Shown here one piece after another: positions 754 through 46,257 of a stretch of DNA of 64,000 nt (its first letter is position 1; every line of letters starts with the position of its first letter). The stretch is from Sipunculus nudus (Eukaryota > Annelida > Sipuncula > Golfingiida > Sipunculidae), in assembly GCA_026874595.1 (NCBI GenBank), contig CM049308.1:93859624-93923623 (forward strand), in the 5' to 3' direction. Made by a program: the position numbers and the translations under genes. Under the pieces are notes generated by a model that did no database searches, was not told the DNA's origin, and saw nothing but the letters and a program-made list of their open reading frames with translations.

Positions 754-2327
754 GATATAATTGTTTATTGGCCATTCTTTCAGTACCACGTGGAATTCTA
801 TCGGAACACGTGGAGATTATCTAGACACGAGGAAATTATTTGGACACGTGGAAATGCTTTTAGAGGTCAGCATTAATTTGGCATATTGACTTGGTGTGGG
901 CCCCTTTAAAGATTTACAGGAATATTTCACGGGGTTTCCAGTGCAACCAAAGAACTCAGGTCGAAGGTTCAGAGGTCCCGTAGTAATAACGATGATATTA
1001 CAAGGATATATAATTAAAGCACCCAGATAGAAAATATATTAATATTAATTAGGGAATATTATATTGACATTCAATTTATACTTTGGCATCTATCTACAAC
1101 ATTGTGAAAATAATTTTACCTACCTGCAATAAAGTGGACAAGATCAGAATCGACGTGTTGTCGAAAGCATGACATGAGGCTGGACTGACGTGATGTCCCT
1201 AACGGGATCGTCAGTAGGGGCACGTCACGCCCAAGTACCCATGCCATGCGACCTGTCCTATTGTTGCTTTAGGTTTCTCAAAAACCGGTCAGGGAAGGTT
1301 TCATGCCACATAGCCGTTCAGTACGGACATCTTCGGCAAATCCCGAGATGGTGGGGATCTATACATATAATAATTGTATTGATATCGCCTTTATTCTGAC
1401 CTCTATTAAATATAAATCTAAACTTTAATGATATAGAACTATATTAAATGATTAATCTGAAAAATTATATCTATTCAGGGGAGTCAACCAGAGAGACAGA
1501 TTAAAACGGTTTCCGGTGACAGTGTCTTGGCCTGCGTGAACTGCCGTTTTGTTTGCGGTTAGTGTGTCCCACTGAACATGATAGTTTATCGACGTCACCC
1601 CTGTTTAAGTGACAGTTGTTTGCGTGGATGTTCCGTCGCAGCAGAAGCGAGTACAAGGACATTCACTGCATAATAAAAACTTCTCCGGAGTTATTTATTT
1701 CTACGTGCACTGTTGAAGTGAATCGCGCCTCAGAATTTCTTAGTCAAAGAAAATTTGATGGACTTTACTTTTCGGTCATTCACTCTTGCGGTACTCTCAT
1801 CTGGGTAACAGTGCCGGCCGTGTACCCAGGACACCAAAGAGAACTGTAGAGACTCTGAACGTTAATGTGAATCCAGCGTGATCCTCTACTTCGGTGACCA
1901 ACCTGTGACATTTGATACAGATACATTTATTATTAGCACATGGGTCACCACTAGTTATTTGTTATTATGCAACTTTGATTACCCATTGTTGCATATCATG
2001 TTTACTTATGATATTTAATATCTAATTGTTTTAATATCTGATAGTTTTGTTATGTAAACATTAATGTTCACTAATCCAGTTGCTTTTTAGATTCACGTAC
2101 TCCTTTACAGAGGTAAGCTGACCTTGTATATTTTATACTAGGTTCGGTACTGGTATTTTATTTAATGATCACCTAGTAGGCTACAAATATGATACTTCAC
2201 TTGAAGATAAGCTTAGCTTCACTTAGATAAATTATTAGATTTTAAGCGGTAGTGTAACTTAGATTGTAGTGTAACTGACTGAACTGTAGTTGTTTACCTA
2301 ACTAAACAGAACTTTGATCTCACCACT
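754..2327 (+). other. Non-coding region 5' of gag
   Basis: No convincing gene is seen. Around 783-855 there are several imperfect copies of an ACACGTGGA motif. Positions 1131-1186 match 8564-8619 in inverted orientation over about 56 bp, a second, non-collinear inverted pair outside the main arms. Part of this stretch is presumably the element's leader and LTR, but the LTR boundaries cannot be set from this window. Confidence 0.5.
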
Positions 2328-3686
2328 ATGAAGTACCAAAACACCCTTGTGGTAGATAACTTACCAGTAGATGTGCAGCAAGCAGAACTCGGGGATCACT
2401 TTGGTGCTGCGGGTGACGTGGAGCATGTGTTGCTGGTTCCTTCAGACTCTAGTCCGGACCAGGCTTTCATTGTCTTTGCCTCCTCATCCGCAGTTACCAA
2501 GGTTCTTAGTTCTCCCAGTTTTGCTGAATGGCAGACTCCATCGGGAGCTGTGTCACTAAAAGTAAAAGCTGCCACAACCGATCATGAGAACTGTATACGA
2601 GAATTGATCGCTGAGGGGAAATCATCCTTAACAGATCCGCTAGATATTTTTCTAGATAGACTGTCCTCTGACAATCTTAACAGATTAAAGCATAAAATAG
2701 AGGATAGGATGGCTTATCAGAGGATCCCTTCTTTTCCAGAGGGCGCTGCCATGGGTCCTAACCTAGTGTATACAATGTCCCAGAAACCACGTTTACCCAC
2801 ATTTTCCGGTGACCCCCAAACAAAAGACACCCCTTTTCGCCAGTGGCGTTACCAAGTTGACTGTCTCTTAGATAACAGATGTTACCGCCACCAAGATATA
2901 GAGGAGGCAATTAGACTGTCCCTTAGAGGTTCAGCCGCGGAGGTTCTTCTTTACCTGGACCCATCTGCCCCTCTTACTGATTTGATCCACCACTTAGACC
3001 TCACGTTTGGAGAGGTGGTAGACATTAATATGATAAGGGAGCAGTATTATGGGGCCCAACAAGAAACTGGGGAGACCATCGTTAAATGGGGCTGTCGTAT
3101 TCAAAAGCTTCTACACAGTTTAAAGCAACGGGGTGAAATCTCAGACCACGAGGCTCGTAGCAGTCTATGTTCAAGATTCTGGTATGGATTAAATGACCTC
3201 CATCAACCCGTGAAAGATGCCCTACGTCCCACTTTAAAATCGGGTACGTCCTTTGAAGTTCTTTTTAGTGCAGCCCGGGAGCTCGAGGTTGAATATATGC
3301 CTATGATGACTCCATCAAAACCTTCCCCTGGGGGTGGTAACATTAGGAGACCCAATTTAAAACCCTCTCAAAATTCCCAACAACAGTCACTTAGTGATCT
3401 TTCCCAAATGGTCAATACAGTGTTACAAAAACTAGAAGGTATTGAATCTCGCCTTACGAGAGTCGAAACAACCCAAAGCTATAGACATAGTAGACCAACC
3501 ACTCCTGCCTATCGAAAGAGTAACGCTACAGTTTCAGAACAAAATTCGAATCCACCTGAACTAGCCACGTTTTGCACCAGGTGTAAACGTAATAACCATT
3601 CTGTTCAAGACTGTAGAGCACGTCGTGACGTAACTGGTAAGCCTTTAAACTCCGGTCCACCTGCGCCAGTCAGTGGGAGGACGTAG
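2328..3686 (+). CDS. gag: Gag polyprotein of Ty3-type element, PNMA-like
   Basis: The 452-residue protein forms the retrotransposon capsid. Residues about 5-78 look like an RRM-type fold (segment NTLVVDNLPVDVQQ through a short FIVF strand), as in the N-terminus of vertebrate PNMA proteins. Residues about 150-330 resemble the PNMA/Ty3 capsid (RLPTFSGD, then a tryptophan-containing helix RQWRYQVDCLL). A single zinc knuckle of CX2CX4HX4C form lies at residues 416-429 (C416, C419, H424, C429). The ATG at 2328 is the first in a long open frame. The gene ends at TAG 3684-3686 and overlaps the pol frame; a TTTAAAC site sits 34 bases before the stop. The frame is intact. PNMA genes are known to derive from Gag of this kind; homology of the N-terminal domain is my inference from sequence pattern. 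Confidence 0.9.
   Translation: MKYQNTLVVDNLPVDVQQAELGDHFGAAGDVEHVLLVPSDSSPDQAFIVFASSSAVTKVLSSPSFAEWQTPSGAVSLKVKAATTDHENCIRELIAEGKSSLTDPLDIFLDRLSSDNLNRLKHKIEDRMAYQRIPSFPEGAAMGPNLVYTMSQKPRLPTFSGDPQTKDTPFRQWRYQVDCLLDNRCYRHQDIEEAIRLSLRGSAAEVLLYLDPSAPLTDLIHHLDLTFGEVVDINMIREQYYGAQQETGETIVKWGCRIQKLLHSLKQRGEISDHEARSSLCSRFWYGLNDLHQPVKDALRPTLKSGTSFEVLFSAARELEVEYMPMMTPSKPSPGGGNIRRPNLKPSQNSQQQSLSDLSQMVNTVLQKLEGIESRLTRVETTQSYRHSRPTTPAYRKSNATVSEQNSNPPELATFCTRCKRNNHSVQDCRARRDVTGKPLNSGPPAPVSGRT
3644..3650 (+). promoter_or_regulatory. -1 ribosomal frameshift slippery site TTTAAAC
   Basis: The heptamer is in the correct phase for X XXY YYZ slippage: T TTA AAC, with TTA and AAC read as gag codons. Gag is in frame 0 (codons start at 2328) and pol is in the -1 frame. 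The pol frame is open from 3641, just after a TAA at 3638-3640, so slippage can only work in the 3641-3683 overlap, which is where the heptamer lies. Downstream, CCAC (3657-3660) can pair with GTGG (3673-3676), giving a possible stimulatory hairpin. UUUAAAC is an established slippery sequence; its use here is inferred. Confidence 0.75.
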
Positions 3687-3730
3687 GTCGGACACACAGG
3701 CCCACTAAACCCAAGGTTATACCTGTTGCT

Positions 3731-6700
3731 TTGACCGGGGATGTAGATTGTGTCTCGCTCGCATCACAGGGGGTTCCATGTACCGGTTTACTAGACACTG
3801 GCTCTTCTGTTACCACAGTGGCTGAACATTTCTACAATCAGTATGTGTCTTCTTTACCAATCCAACAAATATCTGATGTCCTTAACATAGAGGTCGCAGG
3901 GGGAAATAATCTCGAATACCTTGGCATTGTTGAAATAAATTTAAATTTTCCAGGTGTATTGGATAAAATTTTTCCAACTCCCGTATTACTGGTAAAAGAT
4001 ACAACCTTTAATGCGTTGCACCCTTTTGTAATTGGACAGAATGTCCTAAAGCAGTGTGCTCGGATACTTCGCGGTGATGGGGGCCCTAGGTTCCTCCAGA
4101 AGAGTAAAATTCCCGATGCCTGGCGGTCAGCCTTAAAATGCTGTACTTTTGCGACTGCTAAATCTTCCTCAATAGGCCTCGTCACCTCCTTTAGGCAAAT
4201 AACTATTCCACCAAATCAGTCTCTTACTGTACCAGGTAAAACCCGGGCTTGTACATACGGAAAGACGTTGATTGTAACAGAACCTTACGGTCCTCTTCCG
4301 GCGGGATTAGCAGTAGACCCTCTATTGATGGAGGTAAACTTGCAAAATCGTTCAGAGAAACGATTCGATATAAGAATGTCTAATCTTACAAATGACATTG
4401 TTACTATTCCAGCGAAAACAACCATCTGTTCGTTGCAATTGGCCTCTGTTGTTCCTTCAGGCAAATCCAGCCTCGAGGCCAACGATAACGTACTTGATCA
4501 ATTTACCATTGATCCCTCCCTTTCCCTTACGGAAAGACAGCAAGTCCTGGACCTGCTGTGGGAGTGGCGAGACATTTTTGCTAAGCATGATTTGGATCTT
4601 GGGCGCACAGATAAAGTTAAACACAAAATTGTTCTGTCAGACTCTGCCCCTTTTCGCGAGGCATATCGACGTATCCCTCCACACCTTTATCAGGAGGTGC
4701 GCGATCACATAAGGGAAATGCTCGAATTGGGGGTGATTAGAGATAGTTGCAGCCCATATTCGTCAGCTATTGTTCTAGTCAGAAAGCCAGATGATAAGCT
4801 ACGCTTCTGCATAGACTATCGCAAGCTTAATGCTAAAACTGTCCGTGATGCTTACTCATTACCACGTATAGATGACACCTTAGATTCGCTAGTTGGGAGT
4901 AAATACTTCTCTTCTCTCGATTTGAAAGCGGGGTACTGGCAGGTTGAAGTAGAGGAGGAGGATAAGCCTAAAACCGCATTCACTGCAGGTCCTCTCGGGT
5001 TTTTCGAATGGAATACGATGCCGTTCGGTTTAATTAACGCCCCCGCCACGTTCCAACGCCTTATGCAAAAGACAATGGGTGATCTCCATCTGTCTCAGTG
5101 TCTCCTCTATCTTGACGATATTATAGTGTTCAGTTCCACCTTTCAAGAACACTTAGATCGACTTACGGCAGTCTTTAAACGTCTGAAAGAGGCTGGATTG
5201 AAATTGAAACCCAGTAAATGTCATTTGTTCAAAAAACAAGTAAATTACCTTGGCCATGTTGTTTCGGCTAAAGGAATCCAAACTGACCCCACTAAAATTG
5301 AAGCCTTGAAGAACTGGCCCATTCCATCTTCCGTAACTGAAGTCCGACGTTTCCTTGGCTTTGCCAGCTTTTACCGAAAGTTCGTGCGTAATTTTGCTCA
5401 AATCGCAAGGCCCCTCCATGACCTCCTTAAAGGCGAAGGCTCTAGTATAAGTCCTGCATCTAAGAAGCGTAAATCCAAAGCACCACCTTTTGTATGGGGT
5501 CCAGACCAAAAGTCCTCCTTTGAGAAACTGATAGAGCTCCTGTGTAAAGCCCCAGTTTTGGCGTATGCAGACTTTTCTAAGCCTTTTATTTTGCATACAG
5601 ACGCTTCTAGATCTGGCTTAGGGGCGGTTCTATACCAGGAACACGATTCGAAACTGAAACCCATTGCTTATGCCAGCCGCAGTCTAAACAGGTCTGAGCA
5701 GAATTATGCTGTTCACAAACTAGAATTCCTGGCCTTAAAATGGGCGGTTGTTGACAAATACAAAGATTACTTGTATGGGGGCAATTTTACTGTCAAGACT
5801 GACAATAATCCCCTTTGCTATGTGTTAACCACCGCAAAACTGGATGCCACAGGGCATAGGTGGGTGGCTGCATTAGCAAACTTTAACTTTAAAATAGAAT
5901 ATCGGTCCGGAAAAAGGAACGTCGATGCTGACTTCCTATCCAGGACTTGTAATCTTCCCAGTACGGATGATTCTCTCTCTCCTGATATTCTGTCTTCAGA
6001 TTTGGTTCAAGCTATATGCCAGTCTCACCTGCCCGGTTGTACAGGACTACAAAACACCAATCATGACCCATTTATTCCATTTGTATCCCTTAGCCTCCCT
6101 TCTATGCCAATAGACATGATTCAGGAGCAATCAAAAGATCTTGTCCTTAAAACAGTCATAGAAGCTATAAAAAGCGGGAACAAACTAAAATACCGTAAAG
6201 GGGACTCGACTGAGCTGCTGTGTTATCAGACTGAGCTGCTGTGTTATCAGCGCCACCTATCTAAATTTCTCATCAATAAAGGCGTCTTATGTAGAAAACG
6301 GATTGTAGATGACATAGAGACTTTGCAGGTAGTTTTGCCTACCGCTTTGCGTCAAACGGCTCTCAAGGGGCTCCATGATGATATGGGCCATATGGGTCAG
6401 ACTAGAACAATCAACCTAGTACAAGATCGTTTCTTTTGGCCTGGTATGAACAAACATATCACAGAGTATGTAGCTCAGTGTCCACGATGTGTGAGACGAA
6501 AAACTCCTACCTGCCAAAGAGCACCTCTTGTAAACATCCAATCCTCAGCCCCTCTAGAAATTTTGTGCATAGATTTCCTATCTCTGAAACCCAGTAAAGG
6601 TAACATAGAAAATATATTAGTGGTTACTGATCATTTTACTAAGTTTGCCAGGGCATTCCCATGTAAAAGCCAAAAAGCAAAACCAACCGCTCAACTGTTA

Positions 6701-7018
6701 TGGGATAATTTTATCTGTAACTACGGATTTCCCCAAAGAATCCATTCCGATCAGGGGCGAAATTTTGAAAGCAAAGTTATCAAAGATTTGTGCACTCTAG
6801 CTGGTATCGAAAAGTCGCACACAAGTCCCTACCATCCCATGGGCAATGGGCAGTGCGAGCGCTTCAATCGCACGCTACTGAATATGTTAGGCTGTTTAGA
6901 ACCTAATCAAAAGAAAGATTGGAAACTCTTTGTTAATTCTGTTACCCATGCCTATAACTGTACCGGTACATCTAACCTCCGTTATTTCCGTCTATCCATC
7001 ATTTCCCCCCACTCCTAA
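3731..7018 (+). CDS. pol: Pol polyprotein (PR-RT-RH-IN) of Ty3-type element, C-terminally truncated
   Basis: The frame has no ATG at its start (3731 is TTG) and is open from 3641, so it is probably made by -1 frameshifting from gag. Numbering from 3731: protease DTG at 22-24; reverse transcriptase catalytic D397 (SSLDLKAGYW) and YLDD at 460-463; RNase H with D624 (HTDASRSGLGAVL); integrase zinc finger near 880-915; integrase catalytic D948, D1007 and E1043 with D-X35-E spacing. All these residues are present. After the residues AYNCT the protein reads into the inverted-repeat arm, so about the last 20 residues are not integrase, and the C-terminal GPY/F or chromodomain region is lost. A 21-bp in-frame tandem duplication (6210-6251) repeats TELLCYQ between RNase H and integrase. 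Confidence 0.92.
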   Translation: MTGDVDCVSLASQGVPCTGLLDTGSSVTTVAEHFYNQYVSSLPIQQISDVLNIEVAGGNNLEYLGIVEINLNFPGVLDKIFPTPVLLVKDTTFNALHPFVIGQNVLKQCARILRGDGGPRFLQKSKIPDAWRSALKCCTFATAKSSSIGLVTSFRQITIPPNQSLTVPGKTRACTYGKTLIVTEPYGPLPAGLAVDPLLMEVNLQNRSEKRFDIRMSNLTNDIVTIPAKTTICSLQLASVVPSGKSSLEANDNVLDQFTIDPSLSLTERQQVLDLLWEWRDIFAKHDLDLGRTDKVKHKIVLSDSAPFREAYRRIPPHLYQEVRDHIREMLELGVIRDSCSPYSSAIVLVRKPDDKLRFCIDYRKLNAKTVRDAYSLPRIDDTLDSLVGSKYFSSLDLKAGYWQVEVEEEDKPKTAFTAGPLGFFEWNTMPFGLINAPATFQRLMQKTMGDLHLSQCLLYLDDIIVFSSTFQEHLDRLTAVFKRLKEAGLKLKPSKCHLFKKQVNYLGHVVSAKGIQTDPTKIEALKNWPIPSSVTEVRRFLGFASFYRKFVRNFAQIARPLHDLLKGEGSSISPASKKRKSKAPPFVWGPDQKSSFEKLIELLCKAPVLAYADFSKPFILHTDASRSGLGAVLYQEHDSKLKPIAYASRSLNRSEQNYAVHKLEFLALKWAVVDKYKDYLYGGNFTVKTDNNPLCYVLTTAKLDATGHRWVAALANFNFKIEYRSGKRNVDADFLSRTCNLPSTDDSLSPDILSSDLVQAICQSHLPGCTGLQNTNHDPFIPFVSLSLPSMPIDMIQEQSKDLVLKTVIEAIKSGNKLKYRKGDSTELLCYQTELLCYQRHLSKFLINKGVLCRKRIVDDIETLQVVLPTALRQTALKGLHDDMGHMGQTRTINLVQDRFFWPGMNKHITEYVAQCPRCVRRKTPTCQRAPLVNIQSSAPLEILCIDFLSLKPSKGNIENILVVTDHFTKFARAFPCKSQKAKPTAQLLWDNFICNYGFPQRIHSDQGRNFESKVIKDLCTLAGIEKSHTSPYHPMGNGQCERFNRTLLNMLGCLEPNQKKDWKLFVNSVTHAYNCTGTSNLRYFRLSIISPHS

Positions 7019-7714
7019 GGCATCAGCAATATTTAAAAATAAGCTTGAAAATGCATAGAATTGAGTGAACAGGATTTAAAACATAACAGAACTAATTGTA
7101 ACACTCGTATTGAATAATTCTATAAAATCGTATTTTCTTTTATAAAATATAATGAGAAAATGGGTCTACGGCATAAATATGAGTAAAGAGAAAATGGTTC
7201 TACAGCAACGGCCTTCTCTCAAACAAACGCAGACGTTATGACTATAACCGTGCTGCCGTCTATCGGTGGATGCTCGCACTAATTCGAGCTAACCCATAAC
7301 CCCCCCCCCCCCCCTTCTCTCTTTTATTTTGGACAACTTGAATTACCACGAAATGTTAGCGAAATGTATAAGAAATTCCTACAAACGTTCATAAACCTCG
7401 CATAAACGTATTTTAAACTTAAACCACTTAGCATTGTGGCAGAACTCACTGTGGGAATATGCCAAGTTACTTTCAACCTAAAAAATCTGATCCTGTAAAT
7501 AAAAGTACAATCCTATGCATTAAAAGTACCAGAACCACTGACCAATGACTGACTCCCAGTAACTTTCCACTTAATTATTGATTTTGAACCTCACCTTTGA
7601 TAGCCCTGCTGCAAAATTCACGTTAAATTCATACACAACTTTCACCAAGCGTTCTGCGCCTGGCGATGTTGATGATTCGTCATCGGGAACCACCTGTTTG
7701 CGCGCGGCGGCCTC
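6959..7714 (-). repeat. Right arm of the long inverted repeat
   Basis: This is the mirror of 1-753. It starts with the palindrome TGTACCGGTACA (6959-6970), which directly abuts interrupted integrase sequence. It includes a long C tract (7298-7314) where the left arm has ten G, and the mirror copy of the putative exon. The shared palindrome at both inner ends suggests a microhomology-driven rearrangement joined the arms to the Ty3 element. Confidence 0.9.
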
Positions 7715-7768
7715 GTTGTTCTCGCCCGCTGTTCCCTTTATAAACCATTCCCCTTTCATAACACACAT
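7595..7768 (-). CDS. Putative 5' coding exon (right-arm copy)
   Basis: Read on the minus strand, an ATG (7766-7768, or the in-frame ATG nine bases on, in a better context) opens a frame encoding a short charged peptide (start MKGEWFIKGTAG, then ARKQVVPDDESSTSPG, ending VVYEFNVNFAAGLSK). The coding part stops at a consensus donor, AAAG|GTGAGG, with GT at 7594-7593. The sequence TTTATAAAG within the first codons could alternatively be a TATA box, in which case the start is further downstream. No family is recognised. The same exon is present in the left arm, which truncates at the window edge. Whether the gene is real needs transcript data. Confidence 0.35.
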
Positions 7769-8563
7769 TAGTCCTTCTATTTATTATGTTACGATTATTA
7801 TGTTACGAAGTAATGTTAATATGGGTGATCAACCAAAGATATCCCATACCTACAAGTAAATAAATATTTACCGAGGTAGATTTCTTGAATTTCCTAGGGG
7901 AGATAAACAACCATTATCCGTCCCTCCAAATATAGTGGGATACCCCCTTCGCTCTTCCATCATAGACTCCCAGAAAATAACCACCCCGAATGTTTTCACT
8001 AAGAAATTTACTACAATCATTGGTCATATTTATATTTTACCTTGTAATAGCATAATTACTTTGAATGATAACAATATAAAACATTATGTACTTAAGAATG
8101 ATACTTAGCCTAGATGTTTCACATTTGTATACTTATTGATGTTATTATAGATAAAAGATATAAACGAAGTGAAATCTTAGTGGTATTGTTTGTGTATAGT
8201 TGTACACAAACATAATGTGTATGAATAGTTAGATGTAAACAAATATAAAACTAGATGAGGGTTTGAGATAAAGATTGATAGATATGTACAAACAAGATGT
8301 TAGATAGTATGAGACTAGTTGTTTAAAAGATATGTATAATAACATGGTTATAATAATAACATGGTTATAATAACATGCAGTGAAGATTTCAGGTAAACCT
8401 ACCTTAATGAATATCTTGTGTACTTGTTGCAGATGCATACATTGCATTTGAGTATATTTATATACAGTTTAATAAGCAATCCAGTATTTGTAAACAATAA
8501 GTTGAGTACCTTTATATACATTATAATGAGCAGTCCAATATTTGTAAACAATATGATCACGTG
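7769..8563. other. AT-rich non-coding stretch with a 50-bp direct repeat
   Basis: No gene is recognised. Positions 8450-8499 and 8504-8553 are imperfect direct copies (54-bp period), both ending in TTTGTAAACAATA. The rest is AT-rich sequence with short ATAATAACATGG repeats near 8335-8375. Confidence 0.5.
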
Positions 8564-8868
8564 AGTCCAGCCTCATGTCATGCTTTCGACAACACGTCGA
8601 TTCTGATCTTGTCCACTTTGTTGCAGAATAAACAGTTGTCAAGTGTCAGCTGCGTGTCGTTTACCATTTGTGTGTGTGCGAGTGGGCCACGAACCAGACC
8701 CCGCCTTACCGCCCGCCCGCGACACTGGCGCAGCCTGCAGGATTCGATATCGCAGCTGGACACTGATACTCCAGGTGGACTTCCGGTTGGACGCACTGTC
8801 ATGAATGGGCCTCCAGTCCTTGGACCCCGGGCACCCATGTGGAGACGGCCAGTCGGAGAGGGGGTGAA
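8564..8868 (+). other. Unique sequence before the first miniature LTR; possible interior of a related element
   Basis: Positions 8564-8619 are an inverted match to 1131-1186. The last 15 bases before the first LTR (8854-8868, CGGAGAGGGGGTGAA) are identical to the polypurine tract found before LTR 2. A 5' LTR would not normally be preceded by its own polypurine tract, so this stretch is probably the 3' interior of a longer or variant member of the same family, and 8869-9013 is then its 3' LTR. No coding capacity is recognised. Confidence 0.45.
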
Positions 8869-8924
8869 TGTAACCGGACACACAAAAGCGTTCCTACTGG
8901 CCTTCCTAGTGAAGCTTGCTTTAT

Positions 8925-8978
8925 TAGCGAAGCGGTAGAACGTCTGACTTGTGTGTCACAGGTTACGGGTTCGAACCC
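8925..8978 (+). promoter_or_regulatory. Internal Pol III promoter (A and B boxes) in LTR 1
   Basis: TAGCGAAGCGG (8925-8935) fits the tRNA A-box consensus TRGCNNAGYGG, and GGTTCGAACCC (8968-8978) fits the B-box GGTTCGANNCC, at tRNA-like spacing. Between them TCTGACTTGTGTGTCA resembles an anticodon arm. The T stem and anticodon stem do not pair well, so this is a tRNA-derived promoter and not a working tRNA gene. Confidence 0.7.
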
Positions 8979-9015
8979 ACATTCGGGCCAGGTTTCTATT
9001 TTCACCCGTTACAAA

Positions 9016-9033
9016 TGGTGGCAGCGGTGGGAT
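9016..9033 (+). other. Primer-binding site, tRNA-Leu
   Basis: The 18 bases are complementary to the last 18 nucleotides of a mature tRNA-Leu including the CCA tail. The match ends after position 59 of the tRNA, at the usual limit set by methylated A58. A copy lies at 9286-9303. At 9556-9573 the match continues past this limit. Confidence 0.8.
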
Positions 9034-9194
9034 CCGGGGAGTTGGTGTCGTGGCATGATGCCCCACCCAGTTCACGTGTGTGACCCCCGGGATAGATCCC
9101 ACGTTCTGGGGACAGAACGTCCTCGGAGAGGGGGTGAATGTAACCGGACACACAAAAGCGTACCTACTGGCCTTGCTAGTGAAGCTTGCTTTAT

Positions 9195-9248
9195 TAGCGA
9201 AGCGGTAGAACGTCTGACTTGTGTGTCACAGGTTACGGGTTCGAACCC
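9195..9248 (+). promoter_or_regulatory. Pol III A and B boxes in LTR 2
   Basis: These are the same A box (9195-9205) and B box (9238-9248) as in LTR 1, shifted by exactly 270 bp and unchanged in sequence. Confidence 0.7.
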
Positions 9249-9464
9249 ACATTCGGGCCTGGTTACCATTTTCACCCGTTACAAATGGTGGCAGCGGTGG
9301 GATCTGGGGAGTTGGTGTCGTGGCATGATGCCCCACCCAGTTCACGTGTGTGACCCCCGGGATAGATCCCACGTTCTGGGGCCAGAACGTCCTCGGAGAG
9401 GGGGTAAATGTAACCGGACACACAAAAGCGTTCCTACTGGCCTTGCTAGTGAGGCTTGCTTTAT

Positions 9465-9518
9465 TAGCGAAGCGGTAGAACGTCTGACTTGTGTGTCACA
9501 GGTTACGGGTTCGAACCC
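9465..9518 (+). promoter_or_regulatory. Pol III A and B boxes in LTR 3
   Basis: The A box (9465-9475) and B box (9508-9518) are again unchanged. A transcript started upstream of the A box here would run through the LTR end, the primer site, the antisense tRNA-Leu body and the inverted pol fragment. Confidence 0.7.
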
Positions 9519-9555
9519 ACATTCGGGCCTGGTTTCCATTTTCACCCGTTACAAA

Positions 9556-9614
9556 TGGTGGCAGCGGTGGGATTCGAACCCACGCCTCCGAAGAGACTGG
9601 TGCCTCAAACCAGT
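9556..9614 (-). pseudogene. Antisense 3' part of mature tRNA-Leu, read-through of the primer-binding site
   Basis: On the minus strand this reads from the 5' strand of the anticodon stem through a GAG-type anticodon loop (TTGAGGC), the long variable arm (CTCTTCGGAG), the T arm (GTGGGTTCGAATCCCAC) and acceptor strand, and ends in CCA. The CCA tail is added after transcription, so its presence next to the tRNA body argues for copying of a mature tRNA. The 5' part (acceptor strand, D arm) is absent; at 9611-9617 the sequence passes into the Ty3 pol fragment through about 3 bases of shared sequence (AGT). The fragment ends near tRNA position 26-27, next to a base that is commonly dimethylated. 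Confidence 0.85.
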
Positions 9615-10857
9615 CAGCATCGACGTTCCTTTTTCCGGACCGATATTCTATTTTAAAGTTAAAGTTTGCTAATGCAGCCACCCACCTATGCCCTGTGGCA
9701 TCCAGTTTTGCGGTGGTTAACACATAGCAAAGGGGATTATTGTCAGTCTTGACAGTAAAATTGCCCCCATACAAGTAATCTTTGTATTTGTCAACAACCG
9801 CCCATTTTAAGGCCAGGAATTCTAGTTTGTGAACAGCATAATTCTGCTCAGATCTGTTTAGACTGTGGCTTGCATAAGCAATTGGTTTCAGTTTCGAATC
9901 GTGTTCCTGGTATAGAACCGCCCCTAAGCCAGATCTAGAAGCGTCTGTATGCAAAATAAAAGGCTTAGAAAAGTCTGCATACGCCAAAACTGGGGCTTTA
10001 CACAGGAGCTCTATCAGTTTCTCAAAGGAGGACTTTTGGTCTGGACCCCATACAAAAGGTGGTGCTTTGGATTTACGCTTCTTAGATGCAGGACTTATAC
10101 TAGAGCCTTCGCCTTTAAGGAGGTCATGGAGGGGCCTTGCGATTTGAGCAAAATTACGCACGAACTTTCGGTAAAAGCTGGCAAAGCCAAGGAAACGTCG
10201 GACTTCAGTTACGGAAGATGGAATGGGCCAGTTCTTCAAGGCTTCAATTTTAGTGGGGTCAGTTTGGATTCCTTTAGCCGAAACAACATGGCCAAGGTAA
10301 TTTACTTGTTTTTTGAACAAATGACATTTACTGGGTTTCAATTTCAATCCAGCCTCTTTCAGACGTTTAAAGACTGCCGTAAGTCGATCTAAGTGTTCTT
10401 GAAAGGTGGAACTGAACACTATAATATCGTCAAGATAGAGGAGACACTGAGACAGATGGAGATCACCCATTGTCTTTTGCATTAGGCGTTGGAACGTGGC
10501 GGGGGCGTTAATTAAACCGAACGGCATCGTATTCCATTCGAAAAACCCGAGAGGACCTGCAGTGAATGCGGTTTTAGGCTTATCCTCCTCCTCTACTTCA
10601 ACCTGCCAGTACCCCGCTTTCAAATCGAGAGAAGAGAAGTATTTACTCCCAACTAGCGAATCTAAGGTGTCATCTATACGTGGTAATGAGTAAGCATCAC
10701 GGACAGTTTTAGCATTAAGCTTGCGATAGTCTATGCAGAAGCGTAGCTTATCATCTGGCTTTCTGACTAGAACAATAGCTGACGAATATGGGCTGCAACT
10801 ATCTCTAATCACCCCCAATTCGAGCATTTCCCTTATGTGATCGCGCACCTCCTGATA
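9615..10857 (-). pseudogene. Inverted fragment of Ty3 pol (RT to RNase H)
   Basis: This is a near-identical reverse-orientation copy of about 4690-5935. It covers reverse transcriptase from the segment QEVRDHIREM through YLDD and RNase H to residues NVDAD; one visible amino-acid difference is R to H in the YASRSLN segment. It has no protease, integrase or start of its own. On one side it joins the antisense tRNA-Leu fragment; on the other it ends in a TA microsatellite (10855-10869), which supplies an accidental ATG. The frame runs on into the tRNA and LTR sequence (to 9496) as a chimeric open frame that should not be annotated as a gene. Confidence 0.9.
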
Positions 10858-42149: not shown

Positions 42150-42595
42150 TATATATTTTACATGTTTTATTACATTTTTAATCGACAAAATGTGAACTTT
42201 CGTTCCGAAATAGTTTGACTGAATTTATATTTATTTCCTTTCCTCATAACAGTTGAAAGCCAAATTAATAATACTTTATGACATATCTTGGAATAGTGGA
42301 TTAAAAAAAATTACAGCTAGCAGAAAATCAAATAGTAGTCATATGATCAAAATTCATGGGAAATCTGATGCTGAAAGCTGCAGCAGATCCTGAGATATTT
42401 TGTAACACACATTACATCTTTTATGCAAACACAACGAATCGTCAAATTGTGTGATCGACAAAATTTGAACTTCCATAAAGACGCCATCTAGAAAATAATT
42501 TAACTGAATTTATACTTATTCTTCTTCCTTTAAGCAGTTGCTTACTCTGATAGGAAAACCAAACATTTCATACTCATGACATAACATGCAAATAG
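42150..42595. other. Unit 2 sequence leading into the minisatellite
   Basis: The part from about 42410 is the first, diverged copy of the spacer that recurs between the minisatellite arrays (TTTGAACTTCC...AAGACGCCATCTAGAAAAT). No gene is seen. Confidence 0.6.
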
Positions 42596-45500
42596 CAATA
42601 AGGACCTATACCTCCTGCAATAAGGGCCTATACCTCCTGCAATAAGGACCTATACCTCCTGCAATAAGGACCTATACCTCCTGCAATAAGGACCTATACC
42701 TCCTGCAATAAGGGCCTATACCTCCTGCAATAAGGACCTATACCTCCTGCAATAAGAGCCTATACCTCCTGCAATAAGGACCTATACCTCCTGCAATAAG
42801 GACCTATACCTCCTGCAATAAGGACCTATACCTCCTGCAATAAGAGCCTATACCTCCTGCAATAAGGACCTATACCTCCTGCAATAAGGGCCTATACCTC
42901 CTGCAATAAGGGCCTATACCTCCTGCAATAAGGGCCTATACCTCCTGCAGACATTGGGCCCACGCAGATGGTGCAACCTGCAGTTCAAAATCAGATAGAA
43001 GTCACATGATCAATATTCATGTGAAATTTTGCACCGACGACTACAGCAGTTCCCGAGATATTTGGTAACAAATATTACATCATATATGCAGTCAAAACAA
43101 ATTTTCAAATTGTTTGATCGACAAAATTTGAACTTCCGTGAAGACGCCATCTAGAAAATAATTTAACTGAATTTATACTTATTCTTCTTCCTTTAAGCAG
43201 TTGCTTACTCTGATAGGAAAACCAAACATTTCATACTCATGACATAACATGCAAATAGCAATAAGGGCCTATACCTCCTGCAATAAGGGCCTATACCTCC
43301 TGCAATAAGGGCCTATACCTCCTGCAATAAGGACCTATACCTCCTGCAATAAGGGCCTATACCTCCTGCAATAAGGACCTATACCTCCTGCAATAAGGGC
43401 CTATACCTCCTGCAGACATTGGGCCCACGCAGATGGTGCAACCTGCAGTTCAAAATCAGATAGAAGTCACATGATCAATATTCATGTGAAATTTTGCACC
43501 GACGACTACAGCAGTTCCCGAGATATTTGGTAACAAATATTACATCATATATGCAGTCAAAACAAATTTTCAAATTGTTTGATCGACAAAATTTGAACTT
43601 CCGTGAAGACGCCATCTAGAAAATAATTTAACTGAATTTATACTTATTCTTCTTCCTTTAAGCAGTTGCTTACTCTGATAGGAAAACCAAACATTTCATA
43701 CTCATGACATAACATGCAAATAGCAATAAGGACCTATACCTCCTGCAATAAGGGCCTATACCTCCTGCAATAAGGGCCTATACCTCCTGCAATAAGGGCC
43801 TATACCTCCTGCAATAAGGACCTATACCTCCTGCAATAAGGGCCTATACCTCCTGCAATAAGGACCTATACCTCCTGCAATAAGGGCCTATACCTCCTGC
43901 AATAAGGGCCTATACCTCCTGCAATAAGGGCCTATACCTCCTGCAATAAGGACCTATACCTCCTGCAATAAGGGCCTATACCTCCTGCAATAAGGACCTA
44001 TACCTCCTGCAATAAGGACCTATACCTCCTGCAATAAGGACCTATACCTCCTGCAATAAGGGCCTATACCTCCTGCAATAAGGACCTATACCTCCTGCAA
44101 TAAGGACCTATACCTCCTGCAATAAGGACCTATACCTCCTGCAATAAGGGCCTATACCTCCTGCAATAAGGGCCTATACCTCCTGCAATAAGGACCTATA
44201 CCTCCTGCAATAAGGGCCTATACCTCCTGCAATAAGGACCTATACCTCCTGCAATAAGGACCTATACCTCCTGCAATAAGGACCTATACCTCCTGCAATA
44301 AGGGCCTATACCTCCTGCAATAAGGACCTATACCTCCTGCAATAAGGGCCTATACCTCCTGCAATAAGGGCCTATACCTCCTGCAATAAGGACCTATACC
44401 TCCTGCAATAAGGGCCTATACCTCCTGCAATAAGGGCCTATACCTCCTGCAATAAGGGCCTATACCTCCTGCAATAAGGGCCTATACCTCCTGCAATAAG
44501 GACCTATACCTCCTGCAATAAGGGCCTATACCTCCTGCAATAAGGGCCTATACCTCCTGCAATAAGGGCCTATACCTCCTGCAATAAGGGCCTATACCTC
44601 CTGCAATAAGGACCTATACCTCCTGCAATAAGGGCCTATACCTCCTGCAATAAGGGCCTATACCTCCTGCAGACATTGGGCCCACGCAGATGGTGCAACC
44701 TGCAGTTCAAAATCAGATAGAAGTCACATGATCAATATTCATGTGAAATTTTGCACCGACGACTACAGCAGTTCCCGAGATATTTGGTAACAAATATTAC
44801 ATCATATATGCAGTCAAAACAAATTTTCAAATTGTTTGATCGACAAAATTTGAACTTCCGTGAAGACGCCATCTAGAAAATAATTTAACTGAATTTATAC
44901 TTATTCTTCTTCCTTTAAGCAGTTGCTTACTCTGATAGGAAAACCAAACATTTCATACTCATGACATAACATGCAAATAGCAATAAGGACCTATACCTCC
45001 TGCAATAAGGGCCTATACCTCCTGCAATAAGGGCCTATACCTCCTGCAATAAGGGCCTATACCTCCTGCAATAAGGACCTATACCTCCTGCAATAAGGGC
45101 CTATACCTCCTGCAATAAGGACCTATACCTCCTGCAATAAGGGCCTATACCTCCTGCAGACATTGGGCCCACGCAGATGGTGCAACCTGCAGTTCAAAAT
45201 CAGATAGAAGTCACATGATCAATATTCATGTGAAATTTTGCACCGACGACTACAGCAGTTCCCGAGATATTTGGTAACAAATATTACATCATATATGCAG
45301 TCAAAACAAATTTTCAAATTGTTTGATCGACAAAATTTGAACTTCCGTGAAGACGCCATCTAGAAAATAATTTAACTGAATTTATACTTATTCTTCTTCC
45401 TTTAAGCAGTTGCTTACTCTGATAGGAAAACCAAACATTTCATACTCATGACATAACATGCAAATAGCAATAAGGACCTATACCTCCTGCAATAAGGGCC

Positions 45501-45643
45501 TATACCTCCTGCAATAAGGGCCTATACCTCCTGCAATAAGGGCCTATACCTCCTGCAATAAGGGCCTATACCTCCTGCAATAAGGGCCTATACCTCCTGC
45601 AATAAGGGCCTATACCTCCTGCAATAAGGGCCTATACCTCCTG
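42596..45643 (+). repeat. Nested 22-bp minisatellite and 311-bp spacer macro-repeat
   Basis: Five arrays of a 22-bp unit (starts CAATAAGG, ends CCTCCTG) lie at 42596-42947 (16 units), 43259-43412 (7), 43724-44669 (43), 44981-45156 (8) and 45468-45643 (8). They are separated by four spacers of exactly 311 bp (42948-43258, 43413-43723, 44670-44980, 45157-45467). The unit varies mainly at one base (AAGGGCC versus AAGGACC, with two AAGAGCC in array 1). Arrays 2, 4 and the start of 3 share the same variant order, so they arose by duplication of the whole macro-unit. In unit 1 there is no such expansion. Confidence 0.95.
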
Positions 45644-46257
45644 CAGACATTGGGCCCACGCAGATGGTGCAACCTGCAGTTCAAAATCAGATAGAAGTCA
45701 CATGATCAATATTCATGTGAAATTTTGAACTGACGACTACAGCAGTTCCCGAGATATTTGGTAACAAATATTACATCATATATGCAGTCAAAACAAATTT
45801 TCAAATTGTTTGATCGACAAAATTTGAACTTCCGTGAAGACGCGATCTTGAAAAATAATTTATTATTCGCCTTTATCTAAGGAACCGCTGAATATGATAT
45901 GAAAAACAAATAATTTATTGCTTATATTTGAAAAAGAGGAAAAGATTATTTCATTCCGCAAAAGTAGGTCAACACCAGAAGCTTACTTTTGCATATCCAT
46001 TACATGATAAAAACGTCTGCAAGGTTTCATGAAGTCCACTGCAGCAGCTGTTAAGATATTTGGTAAAAGACAGCGGACGGTTGACGTTGGACGCTGAACC
46101 AAACATTCGACACCACGTCTTTGATTGTCCACAAATTTGAAAATTTTTGACCAACACGGTCAATTATAGCTGAGATAATGGGTATATATCATTTATATAA
46201 ATCGCTGTACTAAACGCGTTTACCAAATCCTCAACATCTTCAAAGTTCCTGTGGCAT
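45644..46257. other. Last spacer copy and 3' flank of the DUF2236 gene
   Basis: The spacer sequence continues to about 45840 and then passes into sequence matching 31990-32350 of unit 1 (for example ATGATAAAAACGTCTGCAAG), which is the downstream flank of the gene. Confidence 0.6.

Follow-up and report, generated by a model that had tools for sequence, protein, structure and literature searches.

In plants, Cassandra elements carry 5S rRNA promoters in their LTRs. Helenus elements (TRIMp3) are TRIMs with tRNA-derived LTRs, reported from fungi, animals and one plant (Kojima 2024, PMC10886601). In that description, 51 families are assigned to pteriomorph bivalves, target duplications in animals measure 4 bp, representative molluscan LTRs are aligned to tRNA-Lys (figure 2 legend), Gypsy is named as the likely helper in animals, and Pol III transcription is left unproven (PMC10886601). 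The initial annotation of the locus described here had held that no animal element with a tRNA-derived promoter in its LTR had been described; this was wrong, Helenus being reported from animals, bivalves included (PMC10886601).

Within a stretch of 64,000 nucleotides of the Sipunculus nudus genome, hereafter the window, we find an LTR-int-LTR-int-LTR array of three 145-bp LTRs and two 125-bp interiors with a 270-bp period. Our reading, to which we give a joint probability of roughly 0.86, is that the array represents a Helenus-type TRIM that would be transcribed by RNA polymerase III (Pol III) and helped by a Ty3-type element, and that a run-on copy of tRNA-Leu(IAG) was joined here to a Ty3 fragment. 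On sequence grounds, the primer site, the tRNA copying, the 4-bp target duplications and the tRNA-like promoter sequence are the supported parts of this reading; Pol III transcription, read-through of the terminator and the Ty3-type partner are the parts that we infer. The array comprises the following features:

8869-9013, plus strand: LTR 1, 145 bp, TG...CA
9014-9138, plus strand: interior 1, 125 bp, non-coding
9139-9283, plus strand: LTR 2
9284-9408, plus strand: interior 2
9409-9553, plus strand: LTR 3
9124-9138, 9394-9408 (TAAA variant) and 8854-8868, plus strand: polypurine tract CGGAGAGGGGGTGAA
9016-9033, 9286-9303 and 9556-9573, plus strand: 18-base primer site for tRNA-Leu(AAG/TAG)
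8925-8935, 9195-9205 and 9465-9475, plus strand: A box TAGCGAAGCGG, pattern match
8968-8978, 9238-9248 and 9508-9518, plus strand: B box GGTTCGAACCC, pattern match
8999-9002, 9269-9272 and 9539-9542, plus strand: TTTT, candidate Pol III terminator and end of R

Every one of the three LTRs starts with TGTAAC and ends with GTTACA, and each is preceded by CGGAGAGGGGGTGAA, in its TAAA version before the third; the tract at 8854-8868 is separated from its own interior. LTRs 1 and 2 differ at 5 of 145 sites. The 145-bp LTRs with TG...CA ends and an upstream purine tract, as first annotated at 8869-9553, are thus borne out, and these coordinates hold the array but stop two bases short of a tRNA run-on at 9556-9613. 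A mechanical open reading frame of 277 codons (8839-9672) spans the whole array, which is possible because 270 is divisible by 3. A Pfam search of this frame gave no match above a cut-off, and the plus frame is open through LTR-int-LTR in just 4 of 24 other copies read; we therefore take the array as non-coding, in line with the earlier statement that the 125-bp interior codes for nothing.

The primer site TGGTGGCAGCGGTGGGAT starts two bases after each LTR end and pairs with the 18 bases at the 3' end, including CCA, of tRNA-Leu(AAG) and tRNA-Leu(TAG), which confirms the 18-base tRNA-Leu site that had been proposed at this position. The genes of both tRNAs occur in an array on contig C5. Large tandem arrays of tRNA-Leu and tRNA-Lys genes lie at C5:52594018-52636335 and C9:40605435-40684771, and tRNA-Lys genes alternate with tRNA-Met in one locus read (L110). 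At two other loci (L060 and L064), the primer site is swapped to the 3' end of another tRNA-Leu. For this second site, ARAGORN named tRNA-Leu(CAG) genes in four of six loci scanned, and an intron-bearing CAA-like gene fits equally well. Copying of the primer itself would give such an isoacceptor swap as its expected outcome.

In genome-wide searches allowing up to three mismatches, a 35-base LTR core occurred 306 times and a 39-base interior stretch 71 times, with 0 for each reversed-pattern control. About 300 LTRs are recognizable in the genome, and copies are single, solo and tandem. We examined 63 family loci: 40 hand-picked from the exact LTR-core matches listed, 19 spanning 21 of the 30 interior-match rows that have one to three mismatches, and L013, L014, L017 and L027. 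After leaving out 19 loci with an outer LTR end lost or beyond the stretch, and one with mixed strands, exact 4-bp duplications flank 26 of the 43 with both outer LTR ends (mean 12.2 and maximum 19 with shuffled flanks). The fairer figure is that for loci outside TA repeats, where 12 of 22 carry a 4-bp duplication (shuffle mean 2.15, maximum 7). Exact 3- or 5-bp duplications were absent among the 43 loci; at 11 the match extends over 6 bp, as expected of TA repeats, and TA opens the right flank in 35. Target duplications of 4-6 bp had been put forward as something to look for, and their presence, at exactly 4 bp, around copies elsewhere in the same genome therefore identifies a retrotransposon and not only a satellite. 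Such duplications in TA-rich DNA are what integration of the TRIM would produce. Across 36 loci, the mean difference between the paired LTRs of one locus is 3.1%, and 10 of the 36 pairs are without mismatch, so some insertions are recent.

These counts also bear on the alternative that all copies are a plain tandem satellite resembling an LTR element by chance. The window copy is itself a 270-bp tandem and three-LTR arrays recur (at L051, L088 and L093), as a satellite would have it; single LTR-int-LTR and solo LTR insertions, against this, are frequent among the loci fetched, and the 26/43 exact duplications largely refute the satellite, to which we leave almost no probability.

Some family loci have unusual structures. 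L052 (C3:5168650-5169960) is a head-to-head composite: both of its termini are LTR U5 ends, TATA lies on either side, and integration of a palindromic cDNA would leave such a structure. L023 to L026 (C4:1-4000, C8:77000-80500, C17:60936500-60939600 and C13:226000-229000) share the same interior, at 91% over 125 bp, in a repeat that holds only the LTR start; all nine matches to this interior variant, four of them fetched, lie within 230 kb of the end of a chromosome-size contig.

The A-box and B-box matches reported earlier at tRNA spacing within each LTR stand: the two starts are 43 bases apart in all three LTRs, a spacing close to that of tRNA genes. The B-box pattern GGTTCGANNCC has seven strand-matches in the window against 0.19 expected, six of them from the three LTRs because the LTR box is palindromic, and the seventh in the tRNA run-on. 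The A-box pattern alone is not rare in the window (7 found, 6.1 expected), and the weight therefore rests on the 43-base-spaced pair in all three LTRs. We compared the LTR with five tRNA genes of the genome, including a tRNA-Lys gene chosen since human tRNA-Lys had given a score of 21, against 16 for human tRNA-Thr. The genomic tRNA-Lys(TTT) gene aligned with a score of 21 over tRNA positions 7-72, reached by none of 1,000 shuffles (maximum 16); tRNA-Ile and tRNA-Leu-CAG scored 15 each, and tRNA-Leu-AAG and tRNA-Leu-TAG 12 each. An Rfam search of the LTR found no tRNA and no tRNA fold. The best fit to tRNA-Lys and the lack of an Rfam tRNA therefore point to a promoter sequence derived from a tRNA rather than to a tRNA gene, and a putative promoter of tRNA descent is what the LTR carries.

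Conservation of the boxes was assessed in 31 LTRs at 18 loci, picked by their interior regardless of the boxes; a set of 73 LTRs was dropped because the pattern used to pick it overlaps the A box and hence biases it. Departures per site amount to 0.076 in the boxes and 0.069 outside them. The A-box consensus is kept in 18 of the 31 LTRs, the B box in 21, both in register in 13 and the T-run in 29; randomly placed boxes are kept in 16.8 on average and up to 26 for the B box, and in 21.7 for the A box, a rougher control with a looser five-base count. The initial annotation had staked its promoter on box positions being kept between diverged copies, and here the outcome is neutral, the boxes decaying like the remaining LTR. 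We reject box conservation as proof of promoter function on this outcome; even decay would also be expected from dead copies. At L058, L067 and L089, one LTR is without about 12 bases that hold the palindromic B box GGGTTCGAACCC, which the partner LTR keeps at L058 and L089.

Runs of at least four T occur in LTR-int-LTR only once per LTR, 11 bases from the LTR end. In the left LTR, Pol III would start shortly before the A box and would partly read through the TTTT; it would stop at the TTTT of the right LTR, and the resulting RNA would be R-U5-int-U3-R with terminal R repeats. The left-LTR TTTT counts against this scheme, as some transcripts should end early. The rival in which RNA polymerase II transcribes the LTR and the tRNA-like stretch is a passenger draws on the same T-run, lying between promoter and interior, and on boxes that are not preferentially conserved. 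It sits less well with boxes at tRNA spacing in the common LTR form, with A and B boxes reported as common to the published Helenus group (PMC10886601) and with the absence of any run of at least four T between the two terminators; we regard transcription by RNA polymerase II as rather unlikely, and prefer Pol III.

At its right edge the array departs from its own period, and the surrounding sequence is that of a larger retroelement. The features concerned are:

9556-9613, plus strand: primer site running on into antisense mature tRNA-Leu, from CCA to position 27
9606, plus strand: inosine-like C at tRNA position 34
6953-8850, plus strand: Ty3 LTR and leader abutting the array on the left, with the LTR end at 8724 and its start probably at about 6953
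9612-10857, minus strand: Ty3 RT-RNase H fragment in inverted orientation, with 99.6% identity to 4688-5933

Beyond LTR 3, the primer site continues not as interior but as 58 bases of antisense tRNA-Leu. This copy has one mismatch to tRNA-Leu-AAG and one to tRNA-Leu-TAG, both at position 34: on the window strand, AAG genes have T, TAG genes have A and the window has C. Reverse transcriptase reads inosine as G, and C is the base that it makes opposite inosine. The 19-base word GACTGGTGCCTCAAACCAG spanning this position occurs once among the searchable parts of the 1.43-Gb assembly, in the window; a gene with this base at position 34 could lie in stretches missing from the assembly and hence be overlooked. 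We read 9556-9613 as a fossil of the mature primer tRNA copied through, which would make it evidence for mature tRNA-Leu as the primer of the TRIM. At this locus, plus-strand strong-stop synthesis would have passed methyl-A58 and copied mature tRNA-Leu(IAG) as far as base 27, with inosine 34 read as G.

The large tRNA-Leu arrays of this genome might suggest instead that 9556-9613 is a tRNA gene in decay, or a genomic piece of tRNA next to which the element inserted. The first 47 run-on bases have 58 genome matches with up to three mismatches, four of them in TRIM-family copies. The remaining 54 are without the initial TGG (CCA) with which the window stretch begins, and those viewed (L006/L015, L008-L012 and L019) hold tRNA-Leu genes. 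The stretch moreover keeps the register of the primer site of the element, the word spanning position 34 is found nowhere else in the searchable genome, and the same arrangement is seen in three more TRIM-family copies; a gene origin is therefore barely credible.

In these three further copies, the tRNA sequence is likewise over-long. L013 and L017 hold a 47-nt copy to position 38 and then interior, joined within a shared TGGTG, and may stem from one event; L014 is a lone LTR followed by a 50-54 nt tRNA copy and then an A-run. The inosine-like base is present in none of the three: the copies at L013 and L017 end before position 34, and that at L014 fits tRNA-Leu-TAG or stops short. In L018, an old element of another family whose copy is too decayed for sure alignment, position 34 seems by eye to be T, not C. 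Two pattern searches gave 16 sites (7 and 9) with a CCA-like start before tRNA-Leu sequence. Among them, L015 and L118 were rejected as run-on copies, being tRNA genes with a chance flank (L118 matches the intron-bearing gene). L016, L113, L116 and L120 (23-28 nt) were left uncounted, as the search patterns themselves required 24-26 matching bases, and so were L018, L112, L114, L117 and L119, which are decayed, gapped or shorter.

Returning to the fossil-primer reading of 9556-9613, the position of the C can be weighed against a later point mutation, with read-through into the primer still granted. One mismatch in 58 bases is little, LTRs 1 and 2 of the array have themselves diverged at 5/145 sites, and the base is seen in no second copy. 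A random change would hit position 34 with a chance of about 1 in 58, and in the A-to-G sense more rarely still, and tRNA-Leu(AAG) is reported to carry more than 90% inosine 34 in cells and virions (PMC13191261). The inosine reading thus concerns one base in one copy, where a chance A-to-G change exactly there is improbable; we hold a point mutation to be distinctly less plausible than inosine.

Because two bases are common to the end of the tRNA and the start of the Ty3 piece, the copy may end at position 27, 28 or 29, and its end adjoins tRNA position 26. Dimethyl-G26 and methyl-G37 are reported from many zebrafish tRNAs (PMC11417395). In the HIV work, synthesis of the plus strand is normally halted by methyl-A58 once 18 bases have been copied, and longer products, including ones that end at position 37, are described as minor (PMC13191261). 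This chemistry agrees with the copies seen here. By analogy, we infer the same modifications in the host tRNA-Leu. Insertions of tRNA are known in retroviral DNA (PMC12220202); among the titles and abstract openings listed, we found no report of genomic copies of a run-on primer tRNA or of an inosine mark.

A wider proposal is that the LTR elements of this genome archive read-through into mature primer tRNAs, with CCA, an edited base 34, possibly a spliced intron and ends beside modified bases; judged on the copies at hand, we find its chances evenly balanced. It draws on L115 (C4:39214370-39214950), an unrelated LTR-like element whose primer site continues as a 60-base antisense tRNA-Leu(CAA)-like copy with five mismatches. 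The copy fits the spliced form of the tRNA and ends at position 27, like that in the window; it departs from the gene at positions 37 (a usual methyl-G site) and 35, among others, and beyond position 38 its support is 9 of 11 matching bases. If the pattern were general, assemblies would reveal past germ-line states of tRNA modification and changes of retroelement primer.

Around the array lies a broken element whose domain order (RT, RNase H, integrase) marks it as Ty3-like. The left-hand piece (6953-8850) is 95.9% identical to L078 and 96.9% to L079, in which the sequence about 10 bases past the point matching 8850 is that of window 1523 onward; the Ty3 copy in the window therefore looks circularly permuted, with the array and its tRNA tail at the break. 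Across 1523-8850, the integrase gene seems to pass directly into the LTR start near 6953, as in self-integration. On the right, the Ty3 fragment at 9612 and the tRNA end have two bases, AG, in common. We read this arrangement as the joining of aberrant cDNA ends: the tRNA end would have been joined at this 2-base match to the Ty3 fragment, leaving the array within a rearranged Ty3 copy. Elsewhere in the window, at 42595-45862, a 22-bp unit, GCAATAAGGGCCTATACCTCCT, forms a long array in which higher-order repeats are present.

The junctions suggest that TRIM and Ty3 DNA met; mobilization by the neighboring Ty3 does not follow. That element's primer site is TGGCGCAGCCTGCAGGAT at 8726-8743, after the LTR end at 8724, and not the tRNA-Leu site. 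The suggestion that the Ty3 next door served as partner is thus unsupported, and we reject it on the different primer site. In our model, a Ty3-type element that itself uses a tRNA-Leu primer would supply the proteins, reverse-transcribe the TRIM RNA and integrate it. L020, L021 and L022 share the exact 18-base primer site with the TRIM, and coding domains are found in L020 and L021, the two scanned. None of the three shows similarity to the TRIM LTR or interior, LTR bounds being undefined in the L020 family. A coding element with the same LTR ends as the TRIM, also proposed at the outset, was looked for in the genome and not found.

Set against Helenus by features and description rather than by sequence alignment, the element is, on the evidence of its structure, a new Helenus family. 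As in Helenus (PMC10886601), two short LTRs surround a short non-coding interior at TRIM length, the LTR sequence is tRNA-derived with A and B boxes, PBS and PPT are present, target duplications are of 4 bp (26/43, or 12/22 outside TA repeats), and tRNA-Lys is the alignment partner of the LTR. The Helenus paper notes tandem arrays for one zebrafish family, and the window element is also tandem (PMC10886601). Bivalve Helenus elements are described there with tRNA-Lys, His, Ile, Pro, Glu or Ser primers, whereas the window element has tRNA-Leu, the primer also given for Helenus of wasps and fish; seven bivalve families can encode tRNA-Thr, whereas the window LTR has no predicted tRNA (PMC10886601). 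The element thus adds to Helenus a family whose primer is tRNA-Leu and some of whose insertions are recent.

Other described elements are more distant. A SINE, which has no LTRs and inserts in the LINE manner, is ruled out by the LTRs, the PBS and the 4-bp duplications. Like biv-TRIM, a bivalve TRIM reported with tandem arrays and solo repeats, the window element occurs in both forms, but biv-TRIM is described with 202-218 bp repeats, a 77-80 bp interior and no clear PBS (PMC6934838), against 145 bp, 125 bp and a PBS here; the conserved biv-TRIM sequence TGATCCCAAAGGAC is absent from the element with up to three mismatches allowed. Cassandra is likewise a TRIM with a Pol III promoter sequence in its LTR and known tandem arrays, but its promoter is of 5S rRNA and its hosts are plants, whereas the window LTR is tRNA-derived and gave no Rfam 5S match.

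Of all these features, the run-on tRNA and its inosine-like base most deserve further attention. In the accessible text on Helenus, run-on into the primer tRNA goes unmentioned (PMC10886601); it is present in the window, where it suggests that modified bases of primer tRNAs can leave legible traces in genomic DNA. As in the over-extension of the HIV plus strand, synthesis would have run past methyl-A58 (PMC13191261). As in retroviral tRNA capture, of which a tRNA at a circle junction is one case (Colicelli and Goff 1986, cited in PMC12220202), tRNA would have been copied into retroelement DNA (PMC12220202); unlike the retroviral cases, the tRNA here is that of the element's own primer, and its copy has become fixed in a genome and includes an inosine-like base.
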